64,000 bases of DNA, taken from contig NZ_ARVU01000001.1 of assembly GCF_000384415.1 (NCBI RefSeq), positions 992,001 through 1,056,000 of the forward strand. Direction: 5' to 3'. This DNA is from Cycloclasticus pugetii PS-1. Lineage in GTDB: Bacteria; Pseudomonadota; Gammaproteobacteria; Methylococcales; Cycloclasticaceae. This document shows, piece after piece, positions 1 to 18,568 of this stretch (its first letter is position 1; each line of letters begins with the position of its first letter). Made by a program: the position numbers and the translations under genes. The notes below the pieces were generated by a model. The model was not told where the DNA came from. It did no database searches and saw only the letters and a list, made by a program, of their open reading frames with translations.

Positions 1-1073
1 GGTACCCCGTCATGTTCGGTAAAGAAATAGAAGAGGGCAAGCCTGTTAAGGCGATGTTATGTGGTGAAAACCTATTACTCAACCGAATTGATGGAAAAGT
101 TTATGCCATCAAAGATAGGTGTTTACACCGAGGTGTTGCCTTTTCTAAAAAGCCTGAGTGTTATACAAAAGAGACCATTACCTGTTGGTATCATGCTTGG
201 ACGTATCGATGGGACGATGGCTCGTTATGCGACATTATGACGGACCCTAAAAGCGATATGATTGGTAAGCATCGTCTTAAAACGTATACCGCGCAAGAAG
301 CAAAAGGGCTTGTATTTATTTTTCTCGGCGATATTGAACCTACCCCTCTGATTAATGACGTACCACCTGGGTTTTTAGATGAAGGGCGTGCGATTAGAGG
401 CATTAAACGAGAAGTTGGGTCAAACTGGAGAATCGCTGCTGAAAATGGTTTTGATTCAACACATGTTTTTATTCATAAAGACAGTAAGTTAATACCAAAC
501 AATGAGACCGTTATTCCATTAGGGTTTGCGACAGATCGTGAAGAAGAAGCAAAAGGCACCTTATGGGAAGTAGTTAATAACGAAGACGGACCTAAGGGTG
601 TTTACGATAATATCGGCCAGCATGCGGTTCCCGTCGTTGAGGGTAAAGTAGATGGTGAAACAGTTCTTCGTCCGGTTATTGGTGGTGATAAACGCATAGC
701 CAACCAAATCTCAATATGGATGCCAGGCGCCCTTAAAGTAGACCCCTTTCCAGACCCTTCATTGATTCAATTTGAATGGTATGTGCCAAGAGATGAAAAC
801 TCACATTGGTATATTCAAACGCTTGGTAAAGAAGTGGCTAATGAAGCTGAAGAGCAAGAGTTTGAAAAAGATTTTAATGAAAAGTGGGAAGACTGGGGGC
901 TACGTGGCTTTAATGATGATGATATTTGGGCCCGTGAAGCGATGGAAGAGTTTTACAAGGATGACTGGGGTTGGATTAAAGAACAGTTATTTGAGCCAGA
1001 TGGAAATATAGTCGCGTGGAGACAGTTAGCCAGTGAAGCAAATCGCGGTGTCCAAACACTAGAAGATTTATAA
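1..1073 (+). CDS. CarAa-like Rieske terminal oxygenase, N-terminally cut by window edge
   Basis: The frame stays open to the left edge: bases 1-2 complete a Trp codon and the next codons read Y-P-V before the first Met at base 12, matching the W-Y-P-V of the complete paralogue that starts at 6066. About 36 N-terminal residues are therefore missing and the Met at 12 is not the start. The Rieske site is visible as C-L-H (bases 120-128) followed by C-W-Y-H. The catalytic iron ligands appear in D-S-T-H-V-F-I-H and in the downstream F-N-D-D-D-I-W-A-R. The whole chain resembles the homotrimeric terminal oxygenase of carbazole 1,9a-dioxygenase (CarAa), which adds O2 at an angular or ring position using electrons from a ferredoxin. 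The real substrate is unknown; another polycyclic or heteroaromatic is equally possible. A ring-hydroxylating alpha subunit follows 12 bases after its stop. Confidence 0.93.
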   Translation, partial: YPVMFGKEIEEGKPVKAMLCGENLLLNRIDGKVYAIKDRCLHRGVAFSKKPECYTKETITCWYHAWTYRWDDGSLCDIMTDPKSDMIGKHRLKTYTAQEAKGLVFIFLGDIEPTPLINDVPPGFLDEGRAIRGIKREVGSNWRIAAENGFDSTHVFIHKDSKLIPNNETVIPLGFATDREEEAKGTLWEVVNNEDGPKGVYDNIGQHAVPVVEGKVDGETVLRPVIGGDKRIANQISIWMPGALKVDPFPDPSLIQFEWYVPRDENSHWYIQTLGKEVANEAEEQEFEKDFNEKWEDWGLRGFNDDDIWAREAMEEFYKDDWGWIKEQLFEPDGNIVAWRQLASEANRGVQTLEDL

Positions 1074-1085
1074 CTGGGTGATCAA

Positions 1086-2408
1086 ATGAGCACACTCAAT
1101 AATGATGCTTTAGACGAACTGTTTGATAGGCGCCCCGACGACGGTATCTACAAGGTTAACCGACGTGTATATAACGACCCCGCTCTTTACGAGCGGGAGT
1201 TGGAGAGTATTTTTGAAGGGTCTTGGATATATGTCGCGCATGAAAGCCAACTACCGAATAAAGGGGACTTTGTTACAGTCACCATGGGTAGACAGCCTGT
1301 CATTATTAACCGCGATATGAATGGGCAAATTAATGGTTTCATCAATGCTTGCCCACATCGGGGCGCACGTTTATGTAGAACAGAACGGGGTAATACGAAA
1401 AGCTTTATATGCACCTATCATGGTTGGGCATTTGCTAGTGATGGTGAAGCAAAATGGATTCAGCGAGAAGAAGAGGGCTATCCCGAGCTGCTTGATCATA
1501 AGAATGACGTCGGCCTAAAACATGTTGAGAAAGTAGAAAGTTATCGTGGCTTTATCTTTGCAAGCCTATCTGCAGATGTTCCTACCTTAGATCAGCATTT
1601 ATTGGGGGGTAAGGCTTATATCGATATGTTGGTTGACCAGGCGCCGAACGGGCTAGAAGTGTTAAAGGGCAGTTCGAGTTGTGTTTATAAGGGTAATTGG
1701 AAACTGATGCTTGAAAATGGCGGTGGTGATGGATTACACCCAGATTATGCACACAGCTCGCTATTAAAAGTAGCCGATCGAAAATTGCAAAGAAGCACTG
1801 CAGTTCAGACCATGCAGGTTTCAAAAATGTATGAGCAAGTTGGTGGGCAGTGGGCTTTTGGTAATGGCCATACTGGCATTTGGTTTAATTTTCCAAACCC
1901 TGAAGACAGACCGGCTTATAAGCATTTGGCTGAACTAAGTAAAGCGTACGGAGAAGACAGAGCTCATTGGATGACCGGTGTGTTTCGTAATCTATCTATC
2001 TACCCTAATTTACATTTGCTGGACCAAATGGCGACGCTTATTCGCACCTTTAGACCCTTAGATGTAAACCGTACAGAAATAACTTTTTTCTGCATAGCAC
2101 CAGTCGGTGAGCCAGTTGAAGATAGAAAAAACCGTCTGCGTCAATTTGAAGAGTTTTTTGCCGGTAGCGGAATGGGTACGCCAGATGATAATGCTGAGTT
2201 TGAAGAATGTCAGTCAGGTTCTGAAGGGCGTAATTTAGCCACTAGCTATATTTCTTTTGGCCTACATTCACGCCACGAAGGTACCGATGAAGTTGCTAGT
2301 AACTTAGGTATTGAGCTGTCTCATAGTGGGATCATCGGCTATGAGGGTTGCACAATGACGCAATATGACCGTTGGATAGAGCTGATGACGAAGGAAGACA
2401 AATCATGA
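1086..2408 (+). CDS. Benzoate/anthranilate-type ring-hydroxylating dioxygenase, alpha subunit
   Basis: This 440-residue protein resembles the BenA/XylX/AntA group, whose members cis-dihydroxylate benzoate, toluate or anthranilate. The Rieske ligands are C89, H91, C109 and H112 in C-P-H-R-G and C-T-Y-H-G-W. The mononuclear iron site shows D215, H218 and H223. The segment between E-N-G and D-G-x-H carries one more residue than I recall for BenA (G-G-D-G-L-H instead of A-D-G-Y-H), so the substrate pocket may differ. The stop overlaps the beta-subunit start in an ATGA arrangement, so the two are translationally coupled. The dedicated reductase (BenC-like) of this family is not nearby. Substrate cannot be fixed from sequence. 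Confidence 0.93.
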   Translation: MSTLNNDALDELFDRRPDDGIYKVNRRVYNDPALYERELESIFEGSWIYVAHESQLPNKGDFVTVTMGRQPVIINRDMNGQINGFINACPHRGARLCRTERGNTKSFICTYHGWAFASDGEAKWIQREEEGYPELLDHKNDVGLKHVEKVESYRGFIFASLSADVPTLDQHLLGGKAYIDMLVDQAPNGLEVLKGSSSCVYKGNWKLMLENGGGDGLHPDYAHSSLLKVADRKLQRSTAVQTMQVSKMYEQVGGQWAFGNGHTGIWFNFPNPEDRPAYKHLAELSKAYGEDRAHWMTGVFRNLSIYPNLHLLDQMATLIRTFRPLDVNRTEITFFCIAPVGEPVEDRKNRLRQFEEFFAGSGMGTPDDNAEFEECQSGSEGRNLATSYISFGLHSRHEGTDEVASNLGIELSHSGIIGYEGCTMTQYDRWIELMTKEDKS

Positions 2409-2911
2409 AAACACAAGTTGTAGATTTTGATACGTGGAACTTATTGTCCGGGGTTTTATATGAAGAAGCGGCTGCTTTAGATGAACAGCGTTGGGAAGAT
2501 TGGTTGTCCTTGTATGCAGATAATTGCGTTTATTGGGTGCAAGCTTGGGATAGTGAACATGAGTTGTCATGTAATCCTGAGAATGATGTATCGCTGATCT
2601 ATATGGATAACAAATCCATGCTAGAAGACCGTAAATGGCGTTTTACCAGTGGTACATCACCTGCTTCAGTGCCACTACCAAGGACTAATCACCTCATCGG
2701 AAATGTACAGCTTGTTGAATTCAGTGGTGAAAAGGCCGTATTAAAAAGCCATTGGCAAGTTGCTTCGTATAGGTTCCGAGAGCTTACCCAAATAGCTGGG
2801 CGTAGTCGATATATGCTGACGTTAGACAATGGTCTATGGAAGATCGAACAACGGCAGACAGTTCTTGTGAATGATCAGGTCCAAACAACCTTGGATTTAT
2901 ACCATATATAG
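2405..2911 (+). CDS. Ring-hydroxylating dioxygenase, beta subunit
   Basis: A small beta subunit of 168 residues (BenB/XylY/AntB-like, NTF2-type fold) that packs with the preceding alpha subunit in an alpha3-beta3 enzyme. The open frame reaches back to 2372, but ATG 2405 overlaps the alpha stop and is preceded by a GGAAG element about ten bases upstream, so 2405 is the better start. Visible family features are the N-terminal helix with E-E-A-A-A-L-D-E-Q-R-W-E-D-W-L, and the closing strand that ends in D-L-Y-H-I. The beta subunit is mainly structural. Confidence 0.9.
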   Translation: MKTQVVDFDTWNLLSGVLYEEAAALDEQRWEDWLSLYADNCVYWVQAWDSEHELSCNPENDVSLIYMDNKSMLEDRKWRFTSGTSPASVPLPRTNHLIGNVQLVEFSGEKAVLKSHWQVASYRFRELTQIAGRSRYMLTLDNGLWKIEQRQTVLVNDQVQTTLDLYHI

Positions 2912-3119
2912 ATGTTCAACAGAGGTGTTTAAGCATTGAAGTAGGTTTTGGTAACAAAAAGGCGAAAGAAATATTTATTAAATTAACGAGTGATTTTGTA
3001 CAGATATCTTTTATCCATAAAAAGCTAGAAATTAGTGAATGACAGTTAATGGATATGCAGATATGGGGATAAGGATTTAAATAGTTTTAAATACTTTAAA
3101 TGGGAAATAGGAGCATAAA

Positions 3120-4724
3120 ATGCGCACAACTCAGACTATAAAAAAGCTGATAGCAATCGGCCTGACAACGTTGGTTGTCAGTCCATCGGCACAGGCAATT
3201 GATTATCTAAACGGGGATTTACGTGTATCCGGATTCGTTCGAGCACAAACCGCTATCTCCACCACCAGTGATAAAAATGCGGCCAACACAGCATTAGGCC
3301 AACAAGATAATCCCGACTTTAACTTAAACCGCGTCTGGGGGATTGCAGACTTTGACTACCGTCCATCAAGCTTAAGAAACGGCTTGTTTGATAGCGTTCG
3401 CTTATTTTCACGGGTCAAACTGGCGTATGACCTCACCGAAGATTTAAGCGGCGGCGTCGATAGCTACGATGCCTTCTCTGCCTCCAATAACCTTAAAGAT
3501 CGCGGCACGATGATGAATGCAAGCAACGACACCGCATCAGCCGATATCTGGGAACTCTTTGTCGACATTAAAAAAGGCAAATTATGGACACGGTTAGGTC
3601 GTCAAAACATCGTCTGGGGAGAATCTGATGGGGTAAGACTGTTAGATATTGTTAACCCACTGGACAATGCCTGGCACCCATTTGAAGGCGGCGGTGAGCT
3701 CTTTGATCACCGTCGTATTCCATTGTGGATGGCACGGTTTACCTACCAACTACCCATCAATGATATGAGCGTCGACTTCTTCTATAACCCCGGTGACTTT
3801 GTTCCCACAGTACAGGCGGATATCGGTTCACCTTGGAACGTAAACCCCTTACCACGTGATGGTGTTGGCGATCCGGCTGATGGGTTTTTAGTCGTAGGCA
3901 GCCCATTTGGACCCACCTTAGCACCCGGCACCACCTTCATCGTGGATGACGACACCAATGATTGGCGCGGCGAAGACCAATGGGGAATACGCTTATTAGG
4001 CTCACTAGGTGGGTTTAATTACACCTTAAATTACTTAAGCTTAATTGATCAAGATGGGGTGATTTCAGCGACCAACACACTCCCTGTTTTCACACCAACA
4101 CCGCCAACAGCACCAGGTGCGCCAGTAGCCGTACTGCCCGTGCTACAAAACACCCATGAGCGCTTAGATATAGCAGGGGCTTCATTTAACTGGTATGCCG
4201 ATAGCCTTGCCGCGGTGTTTAGAGGCGAAATGTCCTACACCTTTGATAAGCCGTTTGCAAAATCTGCCTCAAACCTACAGTTTGCTGGGCCTGTCCCGCT
4301 GAACCCGCAAGATGCACTCGGGGTCGCTCATCGAGATGAAATGAAAGTAATGTTAGGTATTGATCGACCTTCCTTTATTTTCTCAAAAACTAGAACGATG
4401 AACATCTCCGCTCAGGTGATCTATATCGAACGTGAAAAAATATCCCTTGATACAGATCTTAACGGATTAGCGGCTCGAAAAGATGAAACACAACTCACAC
4501 TGAACTTAAGTCAGCCCTTCGACAATGATCAGTTTTTCGTTGAATTCTTTGGCTTGTATGACATAGACGGCGGTTATTGGTTACAGCCCCAAGTCAGATG
4601 GCAGCCGGGTAATAACTGGCGTGTATGGGCTTACTACAACGCCTTTGGCGGAGAAGAAGAACGCAGTATCGCCGTGTATGACCACGCTGACGAAATGAAT
4701 ATAGCCGTGTCATACCAGTTCTAA
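3120..4724 (+). CDS. DUF1302 family outer-membrane protein
   Basis: A 534-residue protein with a clear signal peptide (about residues 1-26, ending S-A-Q-A) and a C-terminal S-Y-Q-F, the terminal-Phe pattern of outer-membrane beta barrels. It resembles DUF1302 proteins, which regularly accompany DUF1329 proteins and RND transporters in hydrocarbon and steroid degraders; that link is from general knowledge of the families. Alternating strands rich in aromatic residues (for example W-G-I-R-L-L-G-S-L-G-G-F-N-Y-T) support a barrel. It stands 208 bases after the dioxygenase and 34 bases before the DUF1329 gene. A role as a porin for aromatic or hydrophobic compounds is inference. The family has no settled biochemical function. 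Confidence 0.88.
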   Translation: MRTTQTIKKLIAIGLTTLVVSPSAQAIDYLNGDLRVSGFVRAQTAISTTSDKNAANTALGQQDNPDFNLNRVWGIADFDYRPSSLRNGLFDSVRLFSRVKLAYDLTEDLSGGVDSYDAFSASNNLKDRGTMMNASNDTASADIWELFVDIKKGKLWTRLGRQNIVWGESDGVRLLDIVNPLDNAWHPFEGGGELFDHRRIPLWMARFTYQLPINDMSVDFFYNPGDFVPTVQADIGSPWNVNPLPRDGVGDPADGFLVVGSPFGPTLAPGTTFIVDDDTNDWRGEDQWGIRLLGSLGGFNYTLNYLSLIDQDGVISATNTLPVFTPTPPTAPGAPVAVLPVLQNTHERLDIAGASFNWYADSLAAVFRGEMSYTFDKPFAKSASNLQFAGPVPLNPQDALGVAHRDEMKVMLGIDRPSFIFSKTRTMNISAQVIYIEREKISLDTDLNGLAARKDETQLTLNLSQPFDNDQFFVEFFGLYDIDGGYWLQPQVRWQPGNNWRVWAYYNAFGGEEERSIAVYDHADEMNIAVSYQF

Positions 4725-4758
4725 TCAATCATTCATAAAAATTTAAGAGGTCATGAAA

Positions 4759-5985
4759 ATGAATATAAATGAAATAATGAAACATGCTTTGAGCGCACTC
4801 ATTATCAGCAGTGCATCAACAATGGCATTTGCCAAGGTTCCGCAAGTCGGCGATGTGATTGATGCCAGCAATGTAGACCAATACAGCGAATACTTAATTG
4901 AATCAGCGATTGCACTTGTTAAACAAGGTCAGGTACTCAAAGTCACACCGACTTCTGAAAAAGGCTCATTAAGTAACCCGGAGTTTTTGCAAATCACTGA
5001 GGCAAACAAAGGTAAAGCCAGAATACTGGACGAATACGGGACATTGGGCCTTGAAGATGGCTCGCCATGGATCGGTGGATTGCCCTTCCCGGTTGCTGAA
5101 AAAGGTATCGAGGTGATGGTTAATTATCAGGTCGGTAACCTCGCTTTAGAGGGTGATGACTTTGGTCATGTGAATGGTCCTGATTTTCCGATTAGTCGAT
5201 TAACCTATATCAATAGCGATGGTGATGTTTATAAAGAAGCGACCATGGGGATGACGCAAATCATGATGACAGGTCGAGTGGCCGCTGAACCAAAACCAAG
5301 CATTCCTGGTTATGAAGATGAAACCACAAGAAGGATTATCAAGTTTATTGAACCCTATGATGTGAAAGGTATTATTTCCTTAGATATTCAATACCGAGAC
5401 CAAAGTAAGTTACCAGAATCTTATGTTTACTTACCATCGTTTAGACGGGTTCGCCAAGTGGCTACAGCGAACAGAACTGATTCGCTTGCAGGCTCAGAAT
5501 TAACACAGGCAGATTTAAGTGGCTTTTCAGATCCAATGGGCCTGTGGAAATTCAAAATTATTAAAAAAGGTTTAATGTTGGTAAACACAAGGAGCATAAC
5601 GCCTACGGTTCCTTATCCAGAGCCTATTACACTGCATAATAAGTTTTTCCCACAACCTCAACGTCAAATGGAATTGCGTGAAGCCTATGTAGTAGAAGCG
5701 ATTCCAAGGTATGACACGGTTTATGGTAAGAAAATTATGGTATTTGATGCTGAGGTTTATCGATTGGGTGATGTGGCTATTTATGACAACGCCGGCAAAC
5801 TTTATAAAGCTTTTCAGCAAGATTTTGGTGTAACAGATGGTAATCACCCCATACCAACATGGATGGTGGCACTTAACTTGCAAACAGGAAGCGGGACCGT
5901 ATTTGGTAATTACGATATGGGGCTTAATTTAAACCCATCGGTCACTGTGACAGAAAAATCATCAATGAAAAACTTAGCGAGATAA
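4759..5985 (+). CDS. DUF1329 family periplasmic or outer-membrane lipid-carrier-like protein
   Basis: About 408 residues with a signal peptide ending S-T-M-A-F-A. DUF1329 proteins are related to outer-membrane lipoprotein-sorting (LolB-like) folds and are often found with DUF1302 genes. Two start codons are in frame, 4753 and 4759. The AGAGG at 4746-4750 lies only 2 bases from the first but 8 from the second, so 4759 is preferred. Family-like features are a central I-Q-Y-R-D-Q, a Y-L-P-S-F-R-R-V-R-Q element and a late M-V-A-L-N-L-Q-T-G-S-G. Its likely job is to carry a hydrophobic molecule across the periplasm together with the DUF1302 barrel and the RND transporter at 10186; this is inference. 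Confidence 0.88.
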   Translation: MNINEIMKHALSALIISSASTMAFAKVPQVGDVIDASNVDQYSEYLIESAIALVKQGQVLKVTPTSEKGSLSNPEFLQITEANKGKARILDEYGTLGLEDGSPWIGGLPFPVAEKGIEVMVNYQVGNLALEGDDFGHVNGPDFPISRLTYINSDGDVYKEATMGMTQIMMTGRVAAEPKPSIPGYEDETTRRIIKFIEPYDVKGIISLDIQYRDQSKLPESYVYLPSFRRVRQVATANRTDSLAGSELTQADLSGFSDPMGLWKFKIIKKGLMLVNTRSITPTVPYPEPITLHNKFFPQPQRQMELREAYVVEAIPRYDTVYGKKIMVFDAEVYRLGDVAIYDNAGKLYKAFQQDFGVTDGNHPIPTWMVALNLQTGSGTVFGNYDMGLNLNPSVTVTEKSSMKNLAR

Positions 5986-5990
5986 TCAAA

Positions 5991-6023
5991 ATGCCCCTTG
6001 GGCGATGAATCGCCAAGGGGCAT
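5991..6023 (+). terminator. Strong GC-rich hairpin without a U tract
   Basis: An inverted repeat of 14-15 bases (ATGCCCCTTGG-GCGA against TCGC-CAAGGGGCAT, one bulged G, loop TGAA) begins 5 bases after the DUF1329 stop. No run of T follows, so it may be an mRNA 3'-end stabiliser or processing site, or an inefficient terminator that lowers read-through into the next oxygenase gene. Confidence 0.6.
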
Positions 6024-6065
6024 TAGGTGGCTCTATCCATATTGACTAAATATTAAGGAAAGCAA

Positions 6066-7283
6066 ATGATAAATTTTGATAATGAAAACGATACAGTTGT
6101 AGATCAAGAGGTTGTCAAAAAACTTAAAGGTTGGGGCAATTACATCCAAGCAAAACTTGGTTTCCGTAATCATTGGTATCCGGTTGGGTTTAGTGAAGAT
6201 TTAGAAGAAAACAAGCCCAAGCCAATTCAATTAGGCGGCGAAAAACTATTAATCAACCGCATTGATGGAGAGGTGTTTTGTATTGCCGATACCTGCTTGC
6301 ATCGTGGTGTGTCCTTCTCAGAAAAAATCGAATGTTACAGTAAAGACACTGTAACGTGCTGGTATCACGGATGGACCTATAATTTTAATGATGGCAAACT
6401 TTGCGATATTTTAACCGACCCAAATAGTCAAATGATTGGGACTCGTGCACTACAAACTTATCCTGTAGAAGAAGCAAAAGGGATGATGTTTGTGTTTCTA
6501 GGCGATGTCGCAGAAGGCGATGAACCGCCTGCGTTAGGCTTAGATTTACCACCCTGGTTTTTAGATGAAGACCGATATGTCATGGGGATAGGCCGTGAAA
6601 TTGAATCTAACTGGCGCCTTGGTGCTGAAAACGGTTTCGACACAACACATATTTTTATTCATAAAGACTCATCTTATTTAACAGCACGCGATGCACCTAT
6701 TCCACTTGGTTTTGCAACTGAGCAAAAATTAGAATTAGGCATTCACGACAAAGATGGAGCACCTAAAGGGGTCGTTGACCCATTAATGGGCAATTACCGA
6801 CCTGTATTTGATGCAAATATCAAAGGTGAATCCGTTTTATCAAGTGTTCGCCCTGAAGGTGAGCATTCAACTATTTATCAAGTGTCGTTGTGGATGCCAG
6901 GCATTCTGACGGTAGAAAATCACCCTGAACCCGATATAACACAGGTTGAGTTTTATGTACCTATTGATGAAAAAAGACATATGTATTTTCAAATTCTGAG
7001 TAAAAAAGGGGTCACTGAGCCTGAGCAAATACACCGTTATAAAGAGGAATTCACGTCATTGCATGAACCGTTAGCGCTACGTGGTTTTAATGATGATGAT
7101 ATTTGGGCCAGAAAAGCATCTCAGGCATTTTATGATGATGATTATGGTTGGTTAGAAGAGCAGCTTTTTGAACCGGACCATAATTTAATCGCCTGGAGAA
7201 AACTGGCAAGTGAACATTGCCGTGGAATACAACGAGCACCTCGAACAGGGGCCGCTAGAGTAGTTGCACCAAAAAAAGAGTAA
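6066..7283 (+). CDS. CarAa-like Rieske terminal oxygenase (second copy, complete)
   Basis: The complete paralogue of the gene at base 1, 405 residues long, slightly longer than CarAa of carbazole degraders. Rieske ligands are C77, H79, C98 and H101. The 2-His-1-carboxylate iron is probably bound by H195, H199 and D344 or D345 (F-N-D-D-D-I-W-A-R). Like CarAa it has no beta subunit, and a homotrimer is expected. AAGGAAA about 5 bases upstream gives a good ribosome site. The hydrolase and Rieske ferredoxin genes follow in the same direction, much as carAa, carC and carAc are associated in carbazole loci, although the ring-cleavage genes carBaBb are absent. The C-terminal tail after G-I-Q-R-A is longer than in the first copy. 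The substrate is unknown. Confidence 0.94.
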   Translation: MINFDNENDTVVDQEVVKKLKGWGNYIQAKLGFRNHWYPVGFSEDLEENKPKPIQLGGEKLLINRIDGEVFCIADTCLHRGVSFSEKIECYSKDTVTCWYHGWTYNFNDGKLCDILTDPNSQMIGTRALQTYPVEEAKGMMFVFLGDVAEGDEPPALGLDLPPWFLDEDRYVMGIGREIESNWRLGAENGFDTTHIFIHKDSSYLTARDAPIPLGFATEQKLELGIHDKDGAPKGVVDPLMGNYRPVFDANIKGESVLSSVRPEGEHSTIYQVSLWMPGILTVENHPEPDITQVEFYVPIDEKRHMYFQILSKKGVTEPEQIHRYKEEFTSLHEPLALRGFNDDDIWARKASQAFYDDDYGWLEEQLFEPDHNLIAWRKLASEHCRGIQRAPRTGAARVVAPKKE

Positions 7284-7345
7284 CGGTTTTAAGTAACGTA
7301 CTTAAAAGCTAAGAACGTTTAAATTTTATATGAGAGGGCATAATT

Positions 7346-8182
7346 TTGAATATAGAAAATGAATCACTATATGAAAAGAAATATATTGATGTGGATGGTA
7401 TTAACACTTGTTATATAGAAGCCGGCGAGGGTGAGCCGTTAGTGTTAATACATGGTGGTGGCGCTGGCGCAAATGGCTACGGAAATTGGTTTGCTTGTTT
7501 GCCGTTGTTTGCCAAAAGCTTTAGAACCATCGCTGTTGATATGGTGGGCTTTGGTTTAACAGATAGCCCTGACCCCAGTGATTTTGAATATTCACAAAAA
7601 GCACGTTATGAACATATTGCTAACTTTATTAAAAAAATGGGGTTAGAGAAAGTCAACCTTGTTGGTAATTCAATGGGTGGAGCAACAGCCATGGGGGTTG
7701 CCGTTGAGTACCCAGAACTGTGTGAGAGGCTTATCTTAATGGGCAGTGCTGGGCTAAATACAGAGTTGGATATAGCAGCGCTTAAGCCTGTTTTAGGGTA
7801 TGACTATACAAAAGAAGGGATGATAAGGCTGATAAAGGTTCTCACTAATGATTCGTTTCAAATTACCTCAGAAATGATTGATTACCGACACGCAAACTCA
7901 GTAGACCCAAAAAATGAAGCCTCTTATGCGGCGACTATGGACTGGGTTAGAAAAGCAGGGGGCTTGTTTTATGAAGAAGACTATATTGCCAGCGTGCAAC
8001 AAAAAACACTGGTTGTGAATGGTAAAGACGACCAAGTGGTTCCTTTATCGAGTGCACATAAATTTTTAGAGTTAATGGATAACTCATGGGGTTATATCAT
8101 GCCGCACTGTGGTCATTGGGCGATGATTGAGTACCCCGACGACTTTTCTAGTGCCGTGTCGGCTTTTATAAAATCGCACTAG
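7346..8182 (+). CDS. Alpha/beta hydrolase, meta-cleavage product (C-C bond) hydrolase
   Basis: A 278-residue alpha/beta hydrolase of the BphD/CarC/XylF type, which splits the C-C bond of the 2-hydroxy-6-oxo dienoate made by extradiol ring cleavage. The oxyanion segment H-G-G-G-A-G-A-N-G-Y-G-N-W (from residue 36) is typical of this subfamily. The triad is S109 (G-N-S-M-G-G), D228 or D229 (G-K-D-D-Q-V-V-P) and H257 (C-G-H-W). The start is TTG at 7346, with AGAGGG about 8 bases upstream and no upstream in-frame ATG that fits better. Its presence implies a meta-cleavage route for the product of the neighbouring oxygenases, but no extradiol dioxygenase gene is in the window. Confidence 0.9.
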   Translation: MNIENESLYEKKYIDVDGINTCYIEAGEGEPLVLIHGGGAGANGYGNWFACLPLFAKSFRTIAVDMVGFGLTDSPDPSDFEYSQKARYEHIANFIKKMGLEKVNLVGNSMGGATAMGVAVEYPELCERLILMGSAGLNTELDIAALKPVLGYDYTKEGMIRLIKVLTNDSFQITSEMIDYRHANSVDPKNEASYAATMDWVRKAGGLFYEEDYIASVQQKTLVVNGKDDQVVPLSSAHKFLELMDNSWGYIMPHCGHWAMIEYPDDFSSAVSAFIKSH

Positions 8183-8258
8183 TATGTTGAAGTGCTAATG
8201 AATTTTTTAACTAACCATATTATAGATGCCCTGAAAGCTAAGGGATAAAAGGAGTCTT

Positions 8259-8585
8259 ATGTCTGAATTAATGATGCTTTGTAAAACAGCCGAGGTGACC
8301 GAAGATGCACCAATTCAAGTGGTGGTAGATGGTTTGCCCCCACTAGCGGTTTATGAGTTTAATAAAAGTTATTACGTTACCAGTGATATTTGCACACACG
8401 GAATGGCGTTTATGACAGAGGGTGAACAAGATGGAAATGAAATTGAGTGCCCTTTTCATGGTGGTGCATTTAATTTTGTCACAGGGGAAGTGGTGTCTAT
8501 GCCCTGTCATATTCCATTAGAGACTTTTCCAGTCGTCATAAATGATGAATACGTGTGTATTGAAAAACCAGTGCTTGAGAAATGA
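8259..8585 (+). CDS. Rieske [2Fe-2S] ferredoxin of an oxygenase system
   Basis: A 108-residue soluble Rieske ferredoxin (CarAc/BphF/NahAb-like). The cluster ligands are C45, H47, C64 and H67 in C-T-H-G and C-P-F-H-G-G. It would pass electrons from a ferredoxin reductase to a terminal oxygenase, most likely one or both CarAa-like proteins. GGAG lies 7 bases before the ATG. No reductase is encoded nearby, so it must use one encoded elsewhere. It is the only ferredoxin in the window, although four oxygenase alpha/terminal components are present. Confidence 0.92.
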   Translation: MSELMMLCKTAEVTEDAPIQVVVDGLPPLAVYEFNKSYYVTSDICTHGMAFMTEGEQDGNEIECPFHGGAFNFVTGEVVSMPCHIPLETFPVVINDEYVCIEKPVLEK

Positions 8586-9074
8586 TTTATTACTCTTAAC
8601 GGCGAGAGTAATTGTCTGCACGAATACTGGATAAAAGTTTATATGAGCGGGAAGTTTTTAAAAAGTACGATGGATAATACGCAAGCAGTGCTTAGTGTTA
8701 TTTGAGGGTGAAAAATCCTTAATGAAAAAGCAATGGTATTAAAACCAAATAGGTTTAATCAGATAATAATTTTATTGTGAGGGATTAGAAAACAGTTGTG
8801 TTTGTGTAAGTGAGGTGAGAATGGCAGTTTACTGCGAATCGGTTTGATAGATAACACTGGTTAAGTAGTAGGGTGAAGACTCTAACCTTTATTGAAAAAC
8901 AGTTTAATGAAGAACACCACTCCAATGTCGGGGATACGGATACTTATCTTTTTAGGGTTTGCATAGTGTTTAGGCAATCCCTCATTCGATAAGTTTTAAA
9001 CAAGTTAAATATCAAATTATTCAGTTGGTATGAATAGTTGATGGGCATTTAAATATCGTTTAAGGAGTGGTTAA
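8586..9074. other. 489-base intergenic region between ferredoxin and YCF48 genes
   Basis: No convincing gene is seen. It starts with a perfect 8-base stem (ATTACTCT/AGAGTAAT, 8589-8612, 8-base loop) just after the ferredoxin stop, without a T run. The rest is AT-rich, and TAAGGAG at 9061-9067 is the ribosome site of the next gene. A promoter for the YCF48-RND pair probably lies here, but no confident -35/-10 pair was found. Confidence 0.5.
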
Positions 9075-10193
9075 GTGAAGAAACGTATTTGTACAAGAAG
9101 GGTTATTGCTAGCCTATTGGTTTTTGCTGGGTTCAGCCAGGCATCAGGCGTTTTGTGGGCAGTAGAAGCGCAACAAAAAGTGGACATCAGAAACGGTTCC
9201 ATGGGGTTAGCCCATATAAAATCGAATCAATTGGATGATCTTGAAAACCCAGTCTTAAAGCCCAGAGATAGCTTATTTGATATCACTCAACTGGCTGATC
9301 AATCTTACCTAATGGTTGGAAATGATGGCTTGATCATCAAAGCATCAAAGAAGCAGGCGGCAGAAAGGCTAGATTCCAATATTAACCACGACCTGTTTAG
9401 TACGCACGCCACCAAGCAAGGTGACGTGTTTTTAGGTGGTGCAAATGGGTCATTGTATAAGTCTAATGATCATTTGACTAACTGGTCAAAACAAATAATA
9501 GCACCCAATGAATCGATCTTTAACTTTATTGAGTTGAGCACCGCTGAAGTTCTTTTATCGGGTAGTTATGGGCTGCTGATGTCAAGTAGGCCACCTTATC
9601 AGCAGTGGGAAGCCGTCAATATACCTTGGGCAGACTTTCTAAAAGAAGCGTGGAATGAGTTTGGCGAAGCAGCCCCTCATTTATATGCTGGTTGCACTAA
9701 CCAACGCGATGAATTACTGGTAGTTGGTGAGTTCGGCTTAGCACTTAAACGTGATACTGACGGGCAGTGGAGCAAAATACATGGGGGGGCTATAGAACCG
9801 GCTATTTATGGCTGTCAGCTATCCAATAACGGCAAAAATATCATTTTGGTCGGGCAACAAGGCATGGTTTACCAAACCAGTAATGGCGGCGATTCATGGG
9901 TTGAAAAGAGTATTTCAAAAGGAAGTGACCTATATAAGGTGGAAAAGATCAAAGACCTTTTCATTATTCTGGGCGATAAAAAGAAAATATACACCTCATT
10001 AACTTCATCAGACTGGGTGTGCCAGCGATTTATTGGTGACAGGCCTTTGGGTTGGTTTGTTGATATGGCAGTGCAAGGGGAAGACATCGCCATTATCGGC
10101 AGTAATGGTGGTTTTAAAGTGACAAGCTATGCGTCATTTGTAACCGCAATAAATCAATTGAATAACTCAAAGGAGCTTGTTAGCTGTGAATAA
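9075..10193 (+). CDS. YCF48-like (photosystem II assembly factor-like) beta-propeller protein, exported
   Basis: A 372-residue exported protein. It starts at GTG 9075 with TAAGGAG eight bases upstream and has a signal peptide of about 29 residues. Repeated blade motifs of the form G-x-x-G-x-x-x-x-S are seen (G-A-N-G-S-L-Y-K-S, G-S-Y-G-L-L-M-S-S, G-E-F-G-L-A-L, G-Q-Q-G-M-V-Y-Q-T-S-N-G-G-D-S-W), as in YCF48/BNR-type propellers. In non-photosynthetic bacteria such proteins are frequently encoded directly before MMPL/RND genes and with DUF1302/DUF1329 genes, as here. The stop overlaps the RND start, implying coupled expression. A periplasmic partner or assembly factor of the transporter is the likely role; this is inference. 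Confidence 0.85.
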   Translation: MKKRICTRRVIASLLVFAGFSQASGVLWAVEAQQKVDIRNGSMGLAHIKSNQLDDLENPVLKPRDSLFDITQLADQSYLMVGNDGLIIKASKKQAAERLDSNINHDLFSTHATKQGDVFLGGANGSLYKSNDHLTNWSKQIIAPNESIFNFIELSTAEVLLSGSYGLLMSSRPPYQQWEAVNIPWADFLKEAWNEFGEAAPHLYAGCTNQRDELLVVGEFGLALKRDTDGQWSKIHGGAIEPAIYGCQLSNNGKNIILVGQQGMVYQTSNGGDSWVEKSISKGSDLYKVEKIKDLFIILGDKKKIYTSLTSSDWVCQRFIGDRPLGWFVDMAVQGEDIAIIGSNGGFKVTSYASFVTAINQLNNSKELVSCE

Positions 10194-12561
10194 TTGGGCT
10201 GAAAAAATACTATCATTACGGATCATATTATTGGTAATAGCTGGCATCATTACGGTTATTGCTGGGTTTTATGCATCCACCATTTCATTTAAAACGGTGT
10301 ACGAGGAGATTTTGCCTCAACACCATCCATACATTGATACACACCTTGCCTACGAAGGGCAATATGGTGGTCCTTTAACAATCAAGCTTATTTTCGAGTC
10401 TAAAGAAGGCTCCATTTATCAGGCTGATGCGCTAAAAAAGATTAAAGCCATTACCGAAGGACTTGATGCAACGCCTTATGTCAATCATGATCAAGTGTTT
10501 TCAATCGCTTCTCGCAAAGTAAGGCGGGTAAAAATTGATGAGTTTGGTGCCAGCAGCATTCCGCTATTGCCGGGTGATGAACCACTACCAAAAACTGAAG
10601 GGCAGTTAAAAGCGTTTTCAGAACTGGTTGATAGCACGCCTGGGGTTCTTGGAACGTATGTCTCATTTGATAAAAGCTCTGCTTATTTTCAAGCCAGCTT
10701 AATTCCAGGTGAAATAGATTATACAAAGGTATTTAATTATTTAAACGCATTGTCAGAGCAATATAGCAATGAGACGTTCACCTTGCATATGTTTGGTCAA
10801 CCCGTGTTAACAGGGTGGATCTATATGTACAACGCAGAAGTCATACAAATTTTATGTCTTTCTTTTCTGGTGATGTTAGTGATGCTTTTTTACTTCTCTA
10901 AAAACACAAGAATGGTTGTTTTAGCAGGTGTAACCTCTTTAATTAGTGCGGTATGGGGCTTGGGCTTTGTAGGCTTATTAGGTTGGTCTTTAGACCCCCT
11001 AATACTAGTGATTCCAATGCTAGTTATGGCACGTACCTTAAGTCATTCGGTACAAATGGGGATGCGTTATTTAGAAATAGCGCATGATCAGTTAAGTAAA
11101 ATTGATGCCTGCGTTATCTTACTAAAAAAGCAATTTAAACCAGGTGTTTTGGGGATCGTAACCGATGCAGCAGGTATCTTCTTAATTGCGGTAGCCGATA
11201 TTCCTGTGATGCAAAAACTAGCCACATTTGCAGGTATTTGGTCGCTTAGCGTGATTGTGACAGTACTTATCTTAATACCGTTAATGTTCAGCTGTGTAAA
11301 GCAAGTTGGTAAGGTCAATCTGTCAGTCGAAGATGAGAGTTATTGTCTTACAAAGAAAATATTAAGCGGTATATTCTATCTGTCAGATCATAAAACAAGC
11401 CGTGTCATCGTTTGGGTTGTTTTTATTACGGTATCAGCCAGTTCATTTTGGATTTCAAAAGATCTAAAAGTAGGTGAGGTTGAACCTGGCACCAGTTTAT
11501 TATGGCCTGATTCGCCGTATAACCAAGCGGTGTCACTTCATACCAAAAAATTTATTGGTCCAGATCAATTGCTGGTGGTTGTTGAAGCCACACCAGCAGA
11601 AGAAAACAATGGTGCTAAGAAGGCTGACCGTGTGGATATCCGTGAATTGAGTGTTATAAAGAAAATTCAAACCTTTCAATATATGATGCAAAACACACCT
11701 GATATTAAAGGGAGTCTATCATTTGTAGATTTATTACCCAGTGTAAAACGCAGTTTATCGGGTAACTATCCTAAATTTGAAACGCTTCCCGTGGACGGCC
11801 GTGAATCGGGGCAGTTGGTCAATTTACTGCAGGCAAATGCTTCACCAGGCGATTTTAGTTACTTATTTGATAATGAATATAAAAATGCCAGTGTGCGCTT
11901 TTTTGTTTCAGACCATAAATCAGAAACGGTTAATAATGTTATTGAAAAGACTAAAAAAGTTATCTCTGAAATAGAAGCCACTGATAGTAGCCCCGGCAAA
12001 TTACGCATGGCCGCAGGCAGTATTGGGATTGCATCAGCAACAAATAGTGAGGTGTCAAAAGCTCAAGGTTTAAACTTTATCTTAACGACAATGGTTATTA
12101 TTGTTGCGATATGGTTTGGTTATCGATCCTTGTCAGCGGTATTGATTTTAATTACCCCATTATTATTTACTGATGTGGTTGTCGCAGCCATTATGGTGAA
12201 ACTCGGGATGAGTATTAATGTAAATACCTTGCCCATTTTGTCGGTTGGCATGGGTATCGGGATTGACTATGGTATTTATTTGCTAAGTCGCTCAATAGAA
12301 GAGGGTAAACGCGGAGTACATAGTAGCTTGAACGAGGCTGTGCATCATGCAATTTTAACCAGTGGTCGAGCTATCTTTATTACCGCTATTACGATGGTCT
12401 TTGCGGTTGGTATTTGGTATTTCATGTCTAACTTACGCTTTCAAGCTGATATGGGCCTTTTACTTGCATTAGTGATGATTATCAATTGCTTAGGTGCACT
12501 TATTTTGATTCCTTTGGCGATACATACGTTTAAACCAAATTTATTAAAGGCCGATGCGTAA
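10186..12561 (+). CDS. RND superfamily (MMPL-type) transporter
   Basis: About 791 residues with the two-fold RND layout: one N-terminal helix, a periplasmic loop, a helix bundle (about residues 215-385), a second isolated helix near 410-430, a second loop and a C-terminal bundle (about 615-785). The second half contains G-M-G-I-G-I-D-Y-G-I-Y-L-L-S-R, with an Asp in a membrane helix as expected of proton-driven RND pumps. The frame opens at TTG 10177, but AAAGGAG at 10169-10175 is one base from that codon and ten from GTG 10186, so GTG 10186 is chosen. It overlaps the YCF48 stop. MMPL-type RNDs move lipids or hydrophobic compounds, so a role with the DUF1302/DUF1329 proteins in handling hydrophobic aromatics is plausible but untested. 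Confidence 0.88.
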   Translation: MNNWAEKILSLRIILLVIAGIITVIAGFYASTISFKTVYEEILPQHHPYIDTHLAYEGQYGGPLTIKLIFESKEGSIYQADALKKIKAITEGLDATPYVNHDQVFSIASRKVRRVKIDEFGASSIPLLPGDEPLPKTEGQLKAFSELVDSTPGVLGTYVSFDKSSAYFQASLIPGEIDYTKVFNYLNALSEQYSNETFTLHMFGQPVLTGWIYMYNAEVIQILCLSFLVMLVMLFYFSKNTRMVVLAGVTSLISAVWGLGFVGLLGWSLDPLILVIPMLVMARTLSHSVQMGMRYLEIAHDQLSKIDACVILLKKQFKPGVLGIVTDAAGIFLIAVADIPVMQKLATFAGIWSLSVIVTVLILIPLMFSCVKQVGKVNLSVEDESYCLTKKILSGIFYLSDHKTSRVIVWVVFITVSASSFWISKDLKVGEVEPGTSLLWPDSPYNQAVSLHTKKFIGPDQLLVVVEATPAEENNGAKKADRVDIRELSVIKKIQTFQYMMQNTPDIKGSLSFVDLLPSVKRSLSGNYPKFETLPVDGRESGQLVNLLQANASPGDFSYLFDNEYKNASVRFFVSDHKSETVNNVIEKTKKVISEIEATDSSPGKLRMAAGSIGIASATNSEVSKAQGLNFILTTMVIIVAIWFGYRSLSAVLILITPLLFTDVVVAAIMVKLGMSINVNTLPILSVGMGIGIDYGIYLLSRSIEEGKRGVHSSLNEAVHHAILTSGRAIFITAITMVFAVGIWYFMSNLRFQADMGLLLALVMIINCLGALILIPLAIHTFKPNLLKADA

Positions 12562-12629
12562 TGTTTTGGTTAATAGATCGCACAATTAGTAATGCTTGTT
12601 AATATGAATATTATAGGTATGGTTATATT

Positions 12630-13397
12630 ATGAGAATGAGTGGAAAAGTAGCCCTCATAACGGGGGGTGGTTCAGGGATTGGTGAAGCAAGTTGTCAGCG
12701 TTTAGCGCAAGAAGGTGCAACGGTTATCGTGACTGATATTAATTTAGACAGTGCCGAACGTGTTGCGGATGCGATAAATAATGAAGGAGGGCATGCTTGT
12801 CCTAAGTATCACGATGTAACCAAGGAAAAAGCTTGGGTAGCTTTGATCGATGAGGTTATCGATCAATTTGCTAGTTTAGATGTATTAGTAAACAACGCGG
12901 CTATTGCACCAACAGGGTCGGTAGAAGACACCTCTTTGGACGACTGGCGAAGTGTTCAGCAGGTCAATGTAGAAGGCGTTTTTATGGGTACACGTGAAGC
13001 CGTAAAAGCAATGAAAGAGAAAGGAGGCTCAATCATTAATATTTCTTCTGATTTAGGTATTATTGGTGAACCTACAATGGCTGCGTACAGTACGAGTAAA
13101 GGGGCTATTAGAGTTTTTACGAAAGCAGCTGCCTTACATTGTGCCAGGGAAGGCTACGCTATTCGGATAAACTCTGTACACCCTGGTTTTATTGATACAC
13201 CCGCTGTAACCAGCACGGTAGCGGAAATGAGCGAAGATATGGCGAAGGCATTTAGAGAACGAATTTTAGCTGGAATTCCAATGGGGCGAATGGGTAGGCC
13301 TTTAGATGTAGCGAACGGCATTCTTTTCCTTTCTTCAGATGAATCTAGTTATATGACCGGTTCTGAGTTGGTGATTGATGGTGGTTTTATCGCTTAA
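12630..13397 (+). CDS. Short-chain dehydrogenase/reductase (SDR)
   Basis: A classical SDR of 255 residues. The cofactor motif T-G-G-G-S-G-I-G is at residues 11-18, N-N-A-A replaces the usual N-N-A-G near 88-91, and the catalytic residues are S140, Y153 and K157 (Y-S-T-S-K). An acidic residue at the end of strand 2 (T-D-I, D36) favours NAD(H). Such enzymes oxidise cis-dihydrodiols or alcohols. The place at the end of the aromatic cluster fits a dehydrogenase acting on an oxygenase product, but the exact reaction is not readable. A second in-frame ATG at 12636 is possible; no strong ribosome site separates the two. Confidence 0.88.
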   Translation: MRMSGKVALITGGGSGIGEASCQRLAQEGATVIVTDINLDSAERVADAINNEGGHACPKYHDVTKEKAWVALIDEVIDQFASLDVLVNNAAIAPTGSVEDTSLDDWRSVQQVNVEGVFMGTREAVKAMKEKGGSIINISSDLGIIGEPTMAAYSTSKGAIRVFTKAAALHCAREGYAIRINSVHPGFIDTPAVTSTVAEMSEDMAKAFRERILAGIPMGRMGRPLDVANGILFLSSDESSYMTGSELVIDGGFIA

Positions 13398-13602
13398 TGT
13401 TAAGTTTGCCAAACTGCTAGGTTAATCTGTATGAGGCAAGGCAAGCACTGACAGTTCGCCGAATATAATGCTTTTATTTAATTGCTTCCTTGATTAAAAG
13501 TTCATAAGGGATAAATCCCTAAGAATGATGCTGAGCAGTTACATTTATTTGTTATGTTAGACTTCTTTTTCCGTTATTAAAGACTGTGAAGAGGTTAACG
13601 AA

Positions 13603-14499
13603 TTGACATTTAAAATTGCTTTTATCGGGCTTGGTGCAATGGGGCAAGCTATTGTTTCTAGAATTATACAAGCTGGCCATAGCGTTACGGTACATGACCT
13701 ATCCGCTCAAGCTGTTAACGCGATGGTGGAGAAAGGAGCAACAGCACTTGAACAAGGTGTGCCGTTAGGCAGCGATAAAAACCTCGTGTTTGTCAGTGTG
13801 TCTCATGCCGATATCATGGAAAAGTTGATCTGTGAAGAAGGTGGTTTGTTAGATGGCATGGATGAGGGAGGCATTATTGTTGATTTAGGCACAACGCCCA
13901 GCGGGCAGTGTCGGCAGTTAGCAAAACTGGCCAGTGCTAAAGGTAAAGTTTTTTTAGATGCTCCTGTAAGTGGTTCAACGCCTTGGGCTGATGCTGGTAC
14001 CTTGGCCATGATGGTCGGTGGAGAAGAGCAAAGCTATCAGCGAGTGCGGCCGATCCTCTCCTCATTTGCAAATAAAATTCACTATTTAGGTGGGTCGGGT
14101 AATGGGCAATTACTAAAATTGTGTCACCAGTTGACCTTTGTTTCTACCATAACAGGCATATCGGAAGCCATTGCTTTGGCCGAAGCGCACGGGCTTAAGG
14201 CTAAAATGGTTCTTGATGTATTGGCAGATTGCGTTGCGCCGAGGCATGTTATTGACTTTATGCTGCCGATGGCTGAAAACGAGCGTTTTGACCAAGGGCG
14301 TGGAACCTTAAAACTAGGCCATAAAGACCTACAAGCAGTTAAGCAAAGTGCCGAAGATGTCAGTTTAAAACTACCGCTCGCTGAAGAACTGTTGGGTTAT
14401 ATGGATAAGGCAATGAAAGAGGGTTGGCAAGATGCTGACTTGTTTGCTTTGGTTGATATGGCAAGAGATGAGTTTTATGCAACGATGAAAAGCCGTTAA
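13603..14499 (+). CDS. NAD(P)-dependent beta-hydroxyacid dehydrogenase (3-hydroxyisobutyrate dehydrogenase family)
   Basis: A 298-residue protein with the family fingerprint: N-terminal Rossmann G-L-G-A-M-G (residues 9-14), substrate-binding D-A-P-V-S-G-S (119-125) and catalytic K172 in G-N-G-Q-L-L-K. The pair following the catalytic Lys is H175-Q176, where most members carry N-N or N-x, so substrate preference may differ or the enzyme may belong to a divergent branch. The start is TTG 13603, preceded by GAAGAGG. It stands 205 bases after the SDR and converges on the regulator at 14525. A role in degrading a short-chain acid is likely, but a specific substrate cannot be named. Confidence 0.85.
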   Translation: MTFKIAFIGLGAMGQAIVSRIIQAGHSVTVHDLSAQAVNAMVEKGATALEQGVPLGSDKNLVFVSVSHADIMEKLICEEGGLLDGMDEGGIIVDLGTTPSGQCRQLAKLASAKGKVFLDAPVSGSTPWADAGTLAMMVGGEEQSYQRVRPILSSFANKIHYLGGSGNGQLLKLCHQLTFVSTITGISEAIALAEAHGLKAKMVLDVLADCVAPRHVIDFMLPMAENERFDQGRGTLKLGHKDLQAVKQSAEDVSLKLPLAEELLGYMDKAMKEGWQDADLFALVDMARDEFYATMKSR

Positions 14500-14524
14500 G
14501 AAAAGACTTTTTTATATAAACAGG

Positions 14525-15193
14525 TTAAATGTTTATATGCTGACGTAAAGCCTCTAAATTTAGAATAGTAATCGTTTTGCCTTGTACCTCAATCAGGCCA
14601 TCGCGTGTTAATTGTTTTAAAATTCTAGAAAAGGTTTCAGGCCGTACGGATAGGCGTGACGCTAGGGTTGCCTTTGGTGCTGTCCATTGTATTTTATAAG
14701 GCGATAGGGCATCGTTAGTGATGCCTTGGAGCATAAATTGAACAACACGCATGGTAGCATTTTGTAGGGTTAGCTGATCAATCTCCTGAATACTTCCATG
14801 TAAGCGTTGGCTCATTTTAGCCAGTATTTTTAAACAAGTGGCGGGTGACTGATCGAGTAGTTTAAGAAACGTACTCATTTTAATTTGTATCAGTTGGCAG
14901 TCACTAATCGCTTGCGCATGCACTGGATAGTGTTGAAAGTTCATAAACATTACTGCTTCAGCAAATGTTTGTCCTGGACGAATTAATTCGATCACTTTTT
15001 CCTCACCATTGGCAGAGAGGCGATACAGTTTAATCTCGCCGGCCTGTAAATAATAAAAGTACTTGGCCGGGTCTTGCTGGTGAAATAAATGGTTCCCATC
15101 GTTGAGTGAAAGCGTGCTAGTCGCCGTTTCAATTTGACTAAATTGTTGCTCATTAAAGCTGGCAAATAATAAATGTTGGCGTAATGAAGTCAT
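14525..15193 (-). CDS. Crp/Fnr family regulator, DNR/HcpR-like, probably controls hcp
   Basis: A 222-residue protein with an N-terminal cyclic-nucleotide-binding-like domain, a dimer helix and a C-terminal winged helix. It lacks the N-terminal cysteine cluster of FNR, so it is not an O2-sensing iron-sulfur FNR. The recognition helix contains E-T-F-S-R, the E-xx-S-R arrangement that in FNR and DNR reads the TTGAT half site. It is divergent from hcp across an 89-base gap that contains such a site (15208-15221). By analogy with DNR/NnrR/HcpR proteins it probably senses NO or nitrosative stress and activates hcp. That role is inferred from neighbour and motif. Confidence 0.85.
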   Translation of the reverse strand: MTSLRQHLLFASFNEQQFSQIETATSTLSLNDGNHLFHQQDPAKYFYYLQAGEIKLYRLSANGEEKVIELIRPGQTFAEAVMFMNFQHYPVHAQAISDCQLIQIKMSTFLKLLDQSPATCLKILAKMSQRLHGSIQEIDQLTLQNATMRVVQFMLQGITNDALSPYKIQWTAPKATLASRLSVRPETFSRILKQLTRDGLIEVQGKTITILNLEALRQHINI

Positions 15194-15207
15194 GTTTTTT
15201 AGGTTTC

Positions 15208-15249
15208 TTGATGTAGGTCAATTACAACGGAAGGAGCGCTGCCTAGAAT
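15208..15249 (+). promoter_or_regulatory. FNR/DNR-type box and -10 element of the hcp promoter
   Basis: TTGATGTAGGTCAA (15208-15221) is a near-perfect FNR/DNR palindrome. TAGAAT at 15244-15249 is a good -10 hexamer. A start around 15256 would place the box centre at -41.5, the classical class II activation position. The box also lies just upstream of the divergent regulator, which may therefore autoregulate. Confidence 0.75.
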
Positions 15250-15282
15250 TCGCCACACATGTAAAAGACAAAGGAGACTAAC

Positions 15283-16953: not shown

Positions 16954-16977
16954 TATTTAATTAATAACATTCTGATT

Positions 16978-17008
16978 AAAAAAGAGCGCCTAGAGCGCTC
17001 TTTTTTAT
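16978..17008 (+). terminator. Rho-independent terminator after hcp
   Basis: An A tract, then the stem AGAGCGC (16983-16989), loop CTAGA, GCGCTCT (16995-17001), followed by T6. It closes the hcp transcript. Confidence 0.9.
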
Positions 17009-17076
17009 ATTAATAACCATTGATGTCACTGATGAATCGAGATGGCTTGTATAAGAAAAAATCACCAGCGGTGAAT

Positions 17077-17090
17077 CTGATCTAGATCAT
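17077..17090 (+). promoter_or_regulatory. FNR-type palindrome upstream of the PAH-type dioxygenase
   Basis: CTGATCTAGATCAT contains the full TGAT-N4-ATCA core of an FNR/DNR site and is itself palindromic. It lies about 150 bases before the dioxygenase ATG. TAAAAC at 17111-17116 is a possible weak -10, which would put the box near -40. An FNR gene is encoded about 2 kb downstream. Confidence 0.55.
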
Positions 17091-17238
17091 TTAATAAGAA
17101 AATAGTGCTCTAAAACAAGGCTTGGCGAGAAAGCCAAAATAAAAAATTGATTAGGGTCAGTTTAATTAATAGGCGTAGCAGATAGAGTCACGTTTTTCGA
17201 CATGATAATAAAAGTTAGATCATTTCACAGGAGATAAG

Positions 17239-18567: not shown

Positions 18568-18568
18568 A

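Follow-up and report, generated by a model that had tools for sequence, protein, structure and literature searches.

A split Ame-type RND gene set within an aromatic catabolic gene cluster of Cycloclasticus pugetii PS-1

Introduction

How polycyclic and heterocyclic aromatics pass through the Gram-negative envelope is, in our judgement, poorly settled. Here we explore four genes, encoding a DUF1302, a DUF1329, a YCF48 and a resistance-nodulation-division (RND) protein, that lie among oxygenase genes of Cycloclasticus pugetii PS-1. The window analysed is the 64,000 nucleotide stretch that corresponds to positions 992,001-1,056,000 of the single-contig genome (2,383,924 bases).

Among the closest described systems is AmeABCD from Castellaniella defragrans 65Phen, in which AmeA is a DUF1302 protein, AmeB a DUF1329/LolA protein, AmeC a member of COG4447 and AmeD an RND transporter of the HAE3 type (PMC6394551). 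Without ameABCD, cells grew less well on unfunctionalised terpenes such as limonene, whereas growth on acetate or on oxygenated terpenoids was unaffected; acetate relieved the growth defect up to 5 mM limonene. The deletion also lowered the tolerance for apolar monoterpenes, and deletion cells treated with carbonyl cyanide m-chlorophenylhydrazone accumulated slightly more Nile Red (PMC6394551). An earlier note on this DNA, which stated that no transport reaction is established for these families, overlooked these reported data. As in the window, the same four families are encoded beside genes that degrade the hydrocarbon; the ame genes, however, are contiguous and act with monoterpenes, whereas the set of the window is found in an aromatic cluster and is split by a cassette of CarAa, CarC and ferredoxin genes. 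This likeness is drawn from the published description, the Castellaniella sequences lying outside the comparison.

In Pseudomonas putida, PP_0765/PP_0766 and PP_2018/PP_2019 encode a DUF1302 protein, a DUF1329 protein, a periplasmic protein and an efflux transporter (PMC10866462). These genes form two pairs, as in the window, but the locus numbers place these pairs at separate loci and the phenotype concerns growth on Tween 20. Co-folding suggested that the DUF1329 protein perhaps weakly contacts barrel and RND transporter and that the contact between propeller and RND transporter is strong (PMC10866462). The 'Nanopod' cluster of ORM2a, highly detected with benzene, encodes a porin-like protein, a DUF1329 protein, a YCF48-related protein and an MMPL transporter (PMC13101534). 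It resembles the window in that genes, two in ORM2a, lie between DUF1329 and YCF48; one of these encodes a universal stress protein and the other a hypothetical protein, where the window has genes for catabolic enzymes, and ORM2a is an anaerobic member of the Desulfobacterota. The nearest solved relative by sequence of the RND protein in the window is the hopanoid transporter HpnN (5khn, E 9e-16) which, unlike the four-part set described here, works without partner proteins (PMC6394551).

Ame-type sets are widespread and Pfam still lists DUF1302 and DUF1329 as of unknown function. PS-1 is cultured, has published RNA data and contains three sets, one of which in an oxygenase cluster, which makes it a convenient organism to distinguish between export and import.

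Methods

Two samples of loci were used. The Cycloclasticus sample consists of all RND matches at E 1e-60 in 18 genomes, which gave 32 places in 16 genomes. The class sample was taken from 369 gammaproteobacterial genomes and consists of the best DUF1329 place of each of 59 non-Cycloclasticus genomes with a match at E 1e-47 or better. Up to 20 kb around each locus was searched with profiles made from the Cycloclasticus members and strong class matches. L-numbers denote the stretches around the loci; in gene orders A is DUF1302, B is DUF1329, C is YCF48 and D is RND. Membrane motifs were determined in an alignment of 73 full-length RND proteins from the sampled loci, the window's own protein, cut there, being outside the 73.

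Results

A conserved set of four genes, split in PS-1

The four genes of the window form a tetrapartite RND set of the Ame type, a type that is already known, in an unusual split arrangement. Of the 369 gammaproteobacterial genomes, 61 matched DUF1329 strongly (E 1e-47 or better). All four families were found together at 44 of the 59 class loci and 26 of the 32 Cycloclasticus loci, and a single tight same-strand cluster of all four is present at 43 of the 59 class loci, which had been chosen by DUF1329 alone. The six Cycloclasticus loci that lack a part are all cut by contig ends. Since four-family sets recur across the class and Cycloclasticus loci, chance grouping of the families was rejected.

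In all 70 complete sets DUF1302 adjoins DUF1329 and YCF48 adjoins RND. The gene order is ABCD in 49 sets, CDAB in 17 and BADC in two, and two more sets are of the CDAB type, of which one has a broken D and the other has genes on both strands. Of the other 69 complete sets, 68 run without interruption on a single strand; the remaining one, L130, has convergent pairs. The set of the window is the only one among the 70 with catabolic genes between the pairs; its four genes are not contiguous, since the DUF1329 gene ends 3,090 bp before the YCF48 start, with three catabolic genes inside. The earlier note had regarded the four genes as one group interleaved with oxygenase, hydrolase and ferredoxin genes. 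The group holds as a conserved set, although a gap separates its two pairs, and the interleaving is real here yet not typical of the set, as one of the 59 class stretches has an oxygenase alpha-like frame by a profile made mostly from Cycloclasticus proteins. The two-locus set of P. putida suggests that contiguity is usual, not essential, for Ame-type sets.

Families and structure of the two pairs

All four genes are open frames with Pfam matches on the plus strand, where the earlier note had placed them (Table 1). The DUF1302 protein obtained 179.8 bits (cut-off 23.2) and its last residue is Phe. The DUF1329 protein obtained 150.3 bits with PF07044 (cut-off 23.1) and 69.5 bits with LolA_like (PF17131), and a sequence search of solved structures matched it to 3bk5 (E 4e-6); its relation to LolA rests on sequence, since the fold model could not be used. 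YCF48/PSII_BNR obtained 30.2 bits over the whole protein (cut-off 27), with no single stretch that passes alone, and the structural model is a propeller with a predicted local distance difference test (pLDDT) score of 77, residues 1-58 being below 50. Its Foldseek matches include YCF48 structures, among them 5oj3, and seven-bladed designs. The RND protein obtained 49.9 bits with MMPL (cut-off 20.5) and shows 12 segments in a simple hydropathy scan. By eye, the N-termini of the DUF1302, DUF1329 and YCF48 proteins are signal-peptide-like.

The DUF1302 and DUF1329 genes are spaced by 28 bp. The YCF48 and RND frames overlap by 8 bases, in agreement with the translational overlap reported in the earlier note: the RND start was placed at GTG 10186, which lies inside the YCF48 frame and behind AAGGAG, whereas the automatic frame list starts at TTG 10177. 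A HAE1 tripartite pump of the AcrAB-TolC type was rejected, since no membrane fusion protein or TolC-like channel turned up in a scan of 17 proteins from 12-19949; the HAE1-type pump model PRK09579 gives the RND protein 20.5 bits, with a cut-off of 1763.

Table 1. Coordinates of the two gene pairs and of surrounding features in the window
Feature	Position	Strand	Evidence
AmeA-like outer-membrane barrel, DUF1302	3120-4724	+	Pfam; signal-peptide-like start by eye; C-terminal ...VSYQF
AmeB-like periplasmic DUF1329 protein, LolA-related	4753 (alternative start 4759)-5985	+	Pfam, LolA_like, structure-sequence match
AmeC-like exported YCF48 beta-propeller	9075-10193	+	Pfam, fold model, Foldseek
AmeD-like RND transporter, putatively HAE3-type	10186-12561	+	MMPL Pfam; TM4 S286-H287..Q290, TM10 D694-Y695
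CarAa-like Rieske oxygenase, second copy in cluster	6066-7283	+	PF11723 and Rieske domain
Meta-cleavage-compound hydrolase, CarC-like, alpha/beta hydrolase, second copy	7346-8182	+	match 1j1i
Rieske ferredoxin, dioxygenase type, CarAc among relatives	8259-8585	+	matches 2i7f, 1vck
Ring-hydroxylating oxygenase alpha subunit, benzoate/anthranilate-dioxygenase-like	1086-2408	+	BenA model 459 bits, cut-off 781
Ring-hydroxylating oxygenase beta subunit, BenB-like, ATG start 2405	2405-2911	+	family models
Short-chain dehydrogenase, directly downstream of RND	12630-13397	+	family scan
Hairpin after DUF1329 stop, 12-bp perfect arms, no T-run	5990-6024	+	folding

Membrane motifs of the RND proteins

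A Ser-His..Gln motif in transmembrane segment 4 (TM4) and an Asp-Tyr motif in TM10 are both present in 72 of the 73 aligned RND proteins, the one that differs, L112 772-3063, being an RND of a different kind. The RND protein of the window has both motifs, SH..Q in TM4 and DY in TM10, and the RND pair on L020, from the same genome, has neither. The TM4 stretch (reference 274-295) is without acidic residue in 71 of the 72, L114 having Glu, and such a residue is also missing in L112 772-3063 and the L020 pair. The missing TM4 acid was therefore rejected as a hallmark of the Ame type, and it is the two motifs that mark the branch. In the alignment with HpnN, the first repeat of HpnN (by position TM4) contains an acidic residue, and the corresponding part of its second repeat (TM10) contains none; the RND protein of the window shows the reverse. 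If the Asp-Tyr of TM10 relays protons, the relay would be mirrored as compared to HpnN. The L020 pair is part of a different RND/LolA arrangement (6673-13417, minus strand), in which two RND genes are followed by a LolA-like gene and a gene for a 395-aa protein.

Other sets and the history of the split

The set of the window is one of three in the PS-1 genome. Set B, at 2.320-2.327 Mb, is contiguous; set C, at 2.360-2.369 Mb, has at the barrel position a 660-aa protein (L019 10032-12014, minus strand) without Pfam match, which is probably a divergent barrel of the DUF1302 family because it is 28% identical to the DUF1302 protein of the window. Between the three sets, corresponding parts share 18-31% identity.

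A search for close relatives beyond the genus was without success: relatives of the YCF48 protein were found at E 1e-10 in one genome besides its own, of 369. Relatives of the RND protein above 35% in the 17 other Cycloclasticus genomes were found in the metagenome-assembled genome NORP271 (G013) only, and the two loci identified by an RND scan of genome contigs are both from NORP271, with identities of 84% on L073 and 58-60% on L072. L072 contains an uninterrupted set, with the RND gene cut by the contig end, that adjoins a divergent TetR gene; identities to the window are 84% for DUF1302, 54% for DUF1329, 35% for YCF48 and 58% for RND. On L073 these are 58% for YCF48 and 84% for RND. The NORP271 contig L157 has the order TetR-like, extradiol, ring-hydroxylating oxygenase (RHO), CarC, beta, CarAa, BenA, BenB and the start of DUF1302, its genes being 73-94% identical to the upstream cluster of the window (BenA 88%, BenB 79%). 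The DUF1302 start lies near the contig end and is 79% identical over 122 aa. At L157 8280-9011 the DUF1302 frame matches these 122 aa, after which another short frame runs up to the contig end, a break that may stem from misassembly or mark a broken copy. Since the NORP271 contigs are short, L157 and L073 may be one locus.

A stretch of G009 with the same neighbourhood contains CarAa1 (95%) and part of BenA, and none of the set. In the 18 Cycloclasticus genomes no relative of the interleaved CarAa copy exceeds 54%. The simplest reading would be that the catabolic cluster and the Ame set were joined and that a second CarAa-CarC cassette later parted the pairs; the differing nearest relatives of the two pairs also allow separate arrival.

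Proposed mechanism and alternatives

We lean towards a role for the Ame-type system in export, by which a hydrophobic aromatic would be removed from the inner membrane and leave the cell. The assembly, substrate, outward direction and order of events that we infer are as follows. The inner-membrane RND protein would use the proton gradient, as its TM10 Asp-Tyr suggests, to extract the hydrophobic aromatic from membrane or periplasm, either as the parent (hetero)arene or as an intermediate with an opened ring. The RND protein would serve as docking site for the YCF48 propeller, and the LolA-like DUF1329 protein would carry the cargo through the periplasm to the DUF1302 barrel, which would release it outside. 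Membrane loading would thus be relieved while the compound is being degraded by nearby enzymes, namely CarAa/CarC/ferredoxin and those of the BenAB-like and extradiol types. The split would have arisen as a duplicated CarAa-CarC-ferredoxin cassette settled between DUF1302-DUF1329 and YCF48-RND. The four-part envelope pathway for hydrophobic compounds that the earlier note envisaged is supported by the conserved gene set and by the AmeABCD tolerance and Nile Red data (PMC6394551). As to its direction, import or export in the earlier note, the published efflux data and general knowledge of RND proteins favour the outward one.

Various points weigh against this proposal. The structural model of the DUF1329 protein has a pLDDT of 31, too poor for use, and the best family model of the RND protein, HAE3, gives 127.6 bits, below its cut-off of 351.9. 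Of the 15 class loci without a part, ten are cut by contig ends and five are intact, L120 being counted among the latter with only a weak RND match at its edge. An RHO-alpha-like frame is found in one of the 59 class stretches versus 18 of the 32 Cycloclasticus stretches, with a profile built mostly from Cycloclasticus. The outward direction rests on one published system, and in that system the ameABCD mutant and the wild type hardly differed in the real-time efflux of Nile Red (PMC6394551). The requirement of the P. putida set for growth on Tween 20 (PMC10866462) and the reportedly impaired growth on phenanthrene of a Delftia DUF1329 deletion (cited in PMC13101534) fit uptake too. In a transposon screen of Cycloclasticus P1, none of the 22 genes in the published Table 1 bears one of these family names (PMC8547461), where some of the names are generic (permease, outer membrane receptor); the screen may have stopped short of saturation, P1 may lack the set, and paralogous sets may hide a phenotype. 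Finally, the words RND, transporter, efflux, MMPL, porin and outer membrane do not occur in the available main text of PMC11099662.

The same complex could work in reverse, the aromatic being imported via barrel and LolA-like carrier to the inner membrane where an oxygenase takes over. The position of the set in a catabolic cluster fits such import, as do the Tween 20 requirement mentioned above and the reduced growth of ameB::Tn5 on several monoterpenes (PMC6394551), and the authors of the ORM2a study hold that the direction cannot be told (PMC13101534). We nevertheless consider import rather unlikely, as the ameABCD deletion strain matched wild-type growth on oxygenated terpenoids and, with acetate added, on limonene at up to 5 mM, and as Nile Red uptake by its de-energised cells was slightly higher rather than lower (PMC6394551). 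Also against import, the well-studied RND pumps AcrB, HpnN and MmpL3 move their cargo away from the cytoplasmic membrane. An improbable alternative is that the cargo is not the aromatic itself but an endogenous lipid or surfactant, which the set would deliver to the outer membrane in the course of envelope remodelling under hydrocarbon. LolA-like proteins carry lipoproteins and HpnN-like proteins carry hopanoids, and since 58 of the 59 class stretches are without RHO-alpha-like frame, service to ring oxygenases is not required of most sets. Against a lipid cargo stand the RHO-alpha-like frames in the Cycloclasticus stretches and the C. defragrans phenotype, which tracked the hydrocarbon and not acetate or oxygenated terpenoids (PMC6394551).

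The two pairs of the window might also be independent acquisitions that are neighbours by chance and no longer form one complex. DUF1302-DUF1329 is nearest to L072 (84/54%) and YCF48-RND to another NORP271 contig, L073 (58/84%), and the 3,090 bp gap points the same way. In the other 69 complete sets, however, all four genes stay in one place, in one case as convergent pairs; the short NORP271 contigs L157 and L073 may be one locus, and the four P. putida genes, in two separate pairs by locus number, are correlated in mutant fitness (PMC10866462), for which reasons this explanation appears very improbable. It would likewise be a long shot to envisage Ame-type pumps with a proton relay, formed by the TM4 and TM10 motifs, that is mirrored with respect to HpnN, and with a LolA-like carrier that substitutes for the fusion protein, so that the complex shuttles between the two membranes, possibly inward, to load or unload hydrocarbon for the oxygenases, the carrier-barrel and pump-propeller pairs of the window being separately timed by the inserted cassette.

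Genes between and around the pairs

The interleaved oxygenase matches the terminal oxygenase of carbazole 1,9a-dioxygenase with E 3e-132 and is CarAa-like, angular dioxygenation of carbazole being a putative activity. The hydrolase matches 1j1i, which we take to be CarC, with E 1.5e-96, and the ferredoxin has 2i7f as best match (E 6e-32), followed by 1vck (CarAc; E 2e-23). First copies of the CarAa-like and CarC-like genes lie upstream and are 53% and 67% identical, respectively, to the interleaved second copies. Also upstream are genes for an extradiol dioxygenase and a further RHO, one more beta-subunit-like gene and the BenAB-like pair. Judging by these CarAa/CarC/ferredoxin, BenAB-like and extradiol neighbours, the Ame-like set lies inside a catabolic cluster for aromatics, perhaps heteroaromatics. 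Unlike the carbazole genes, the neighbouring window genes that were scanned include no ferredoxin reductase or LigB-type extradiol enzyme.

The gap between ferredoxin and YCF48 measures 489 bp. When the 66 nt around the hairpin that follows the DUF1329 stop were folded, -27.7 kcal/mol was obtained (z -3.6). Promoter-like sites (27 versus 25.7 expected) and terminator-like sites (3 versus 7.8 expected) gave no signal above chance.

A second RHO alpha/beta pair is found at 17239-19105 of the window with Crp/FNR-type genes at each side (14525-15193 and 19170-19949, both minus strand) and a gene of the prismane/hybrid-cluster-protein family (15283-16953) between a Crp/FNR-like gene and the pair. 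This pair may be rhd7, which is reported to be naphthalene-responsive in PS-1 (PMC11099662); interpolation of locus tags between the hydratase-aldolase and PdxA candidates puts rhd7 near 19-22 kb of the window, as an estimate. Correspondence to the rhd1/dpr-1 locus of strain P1 was dropped, since the published gene order differs from that of the scanned genes. A PAS-GAF-GGDEF protein is encoded at 43354-44772 (minus strand) and can, by description only, be set beside the diguanylate cyclase PdgC of P1 (445 aa), which binds polycyclic aromatic hydrocarbons and feeds Crp/FNR regulators (PMC8547461).

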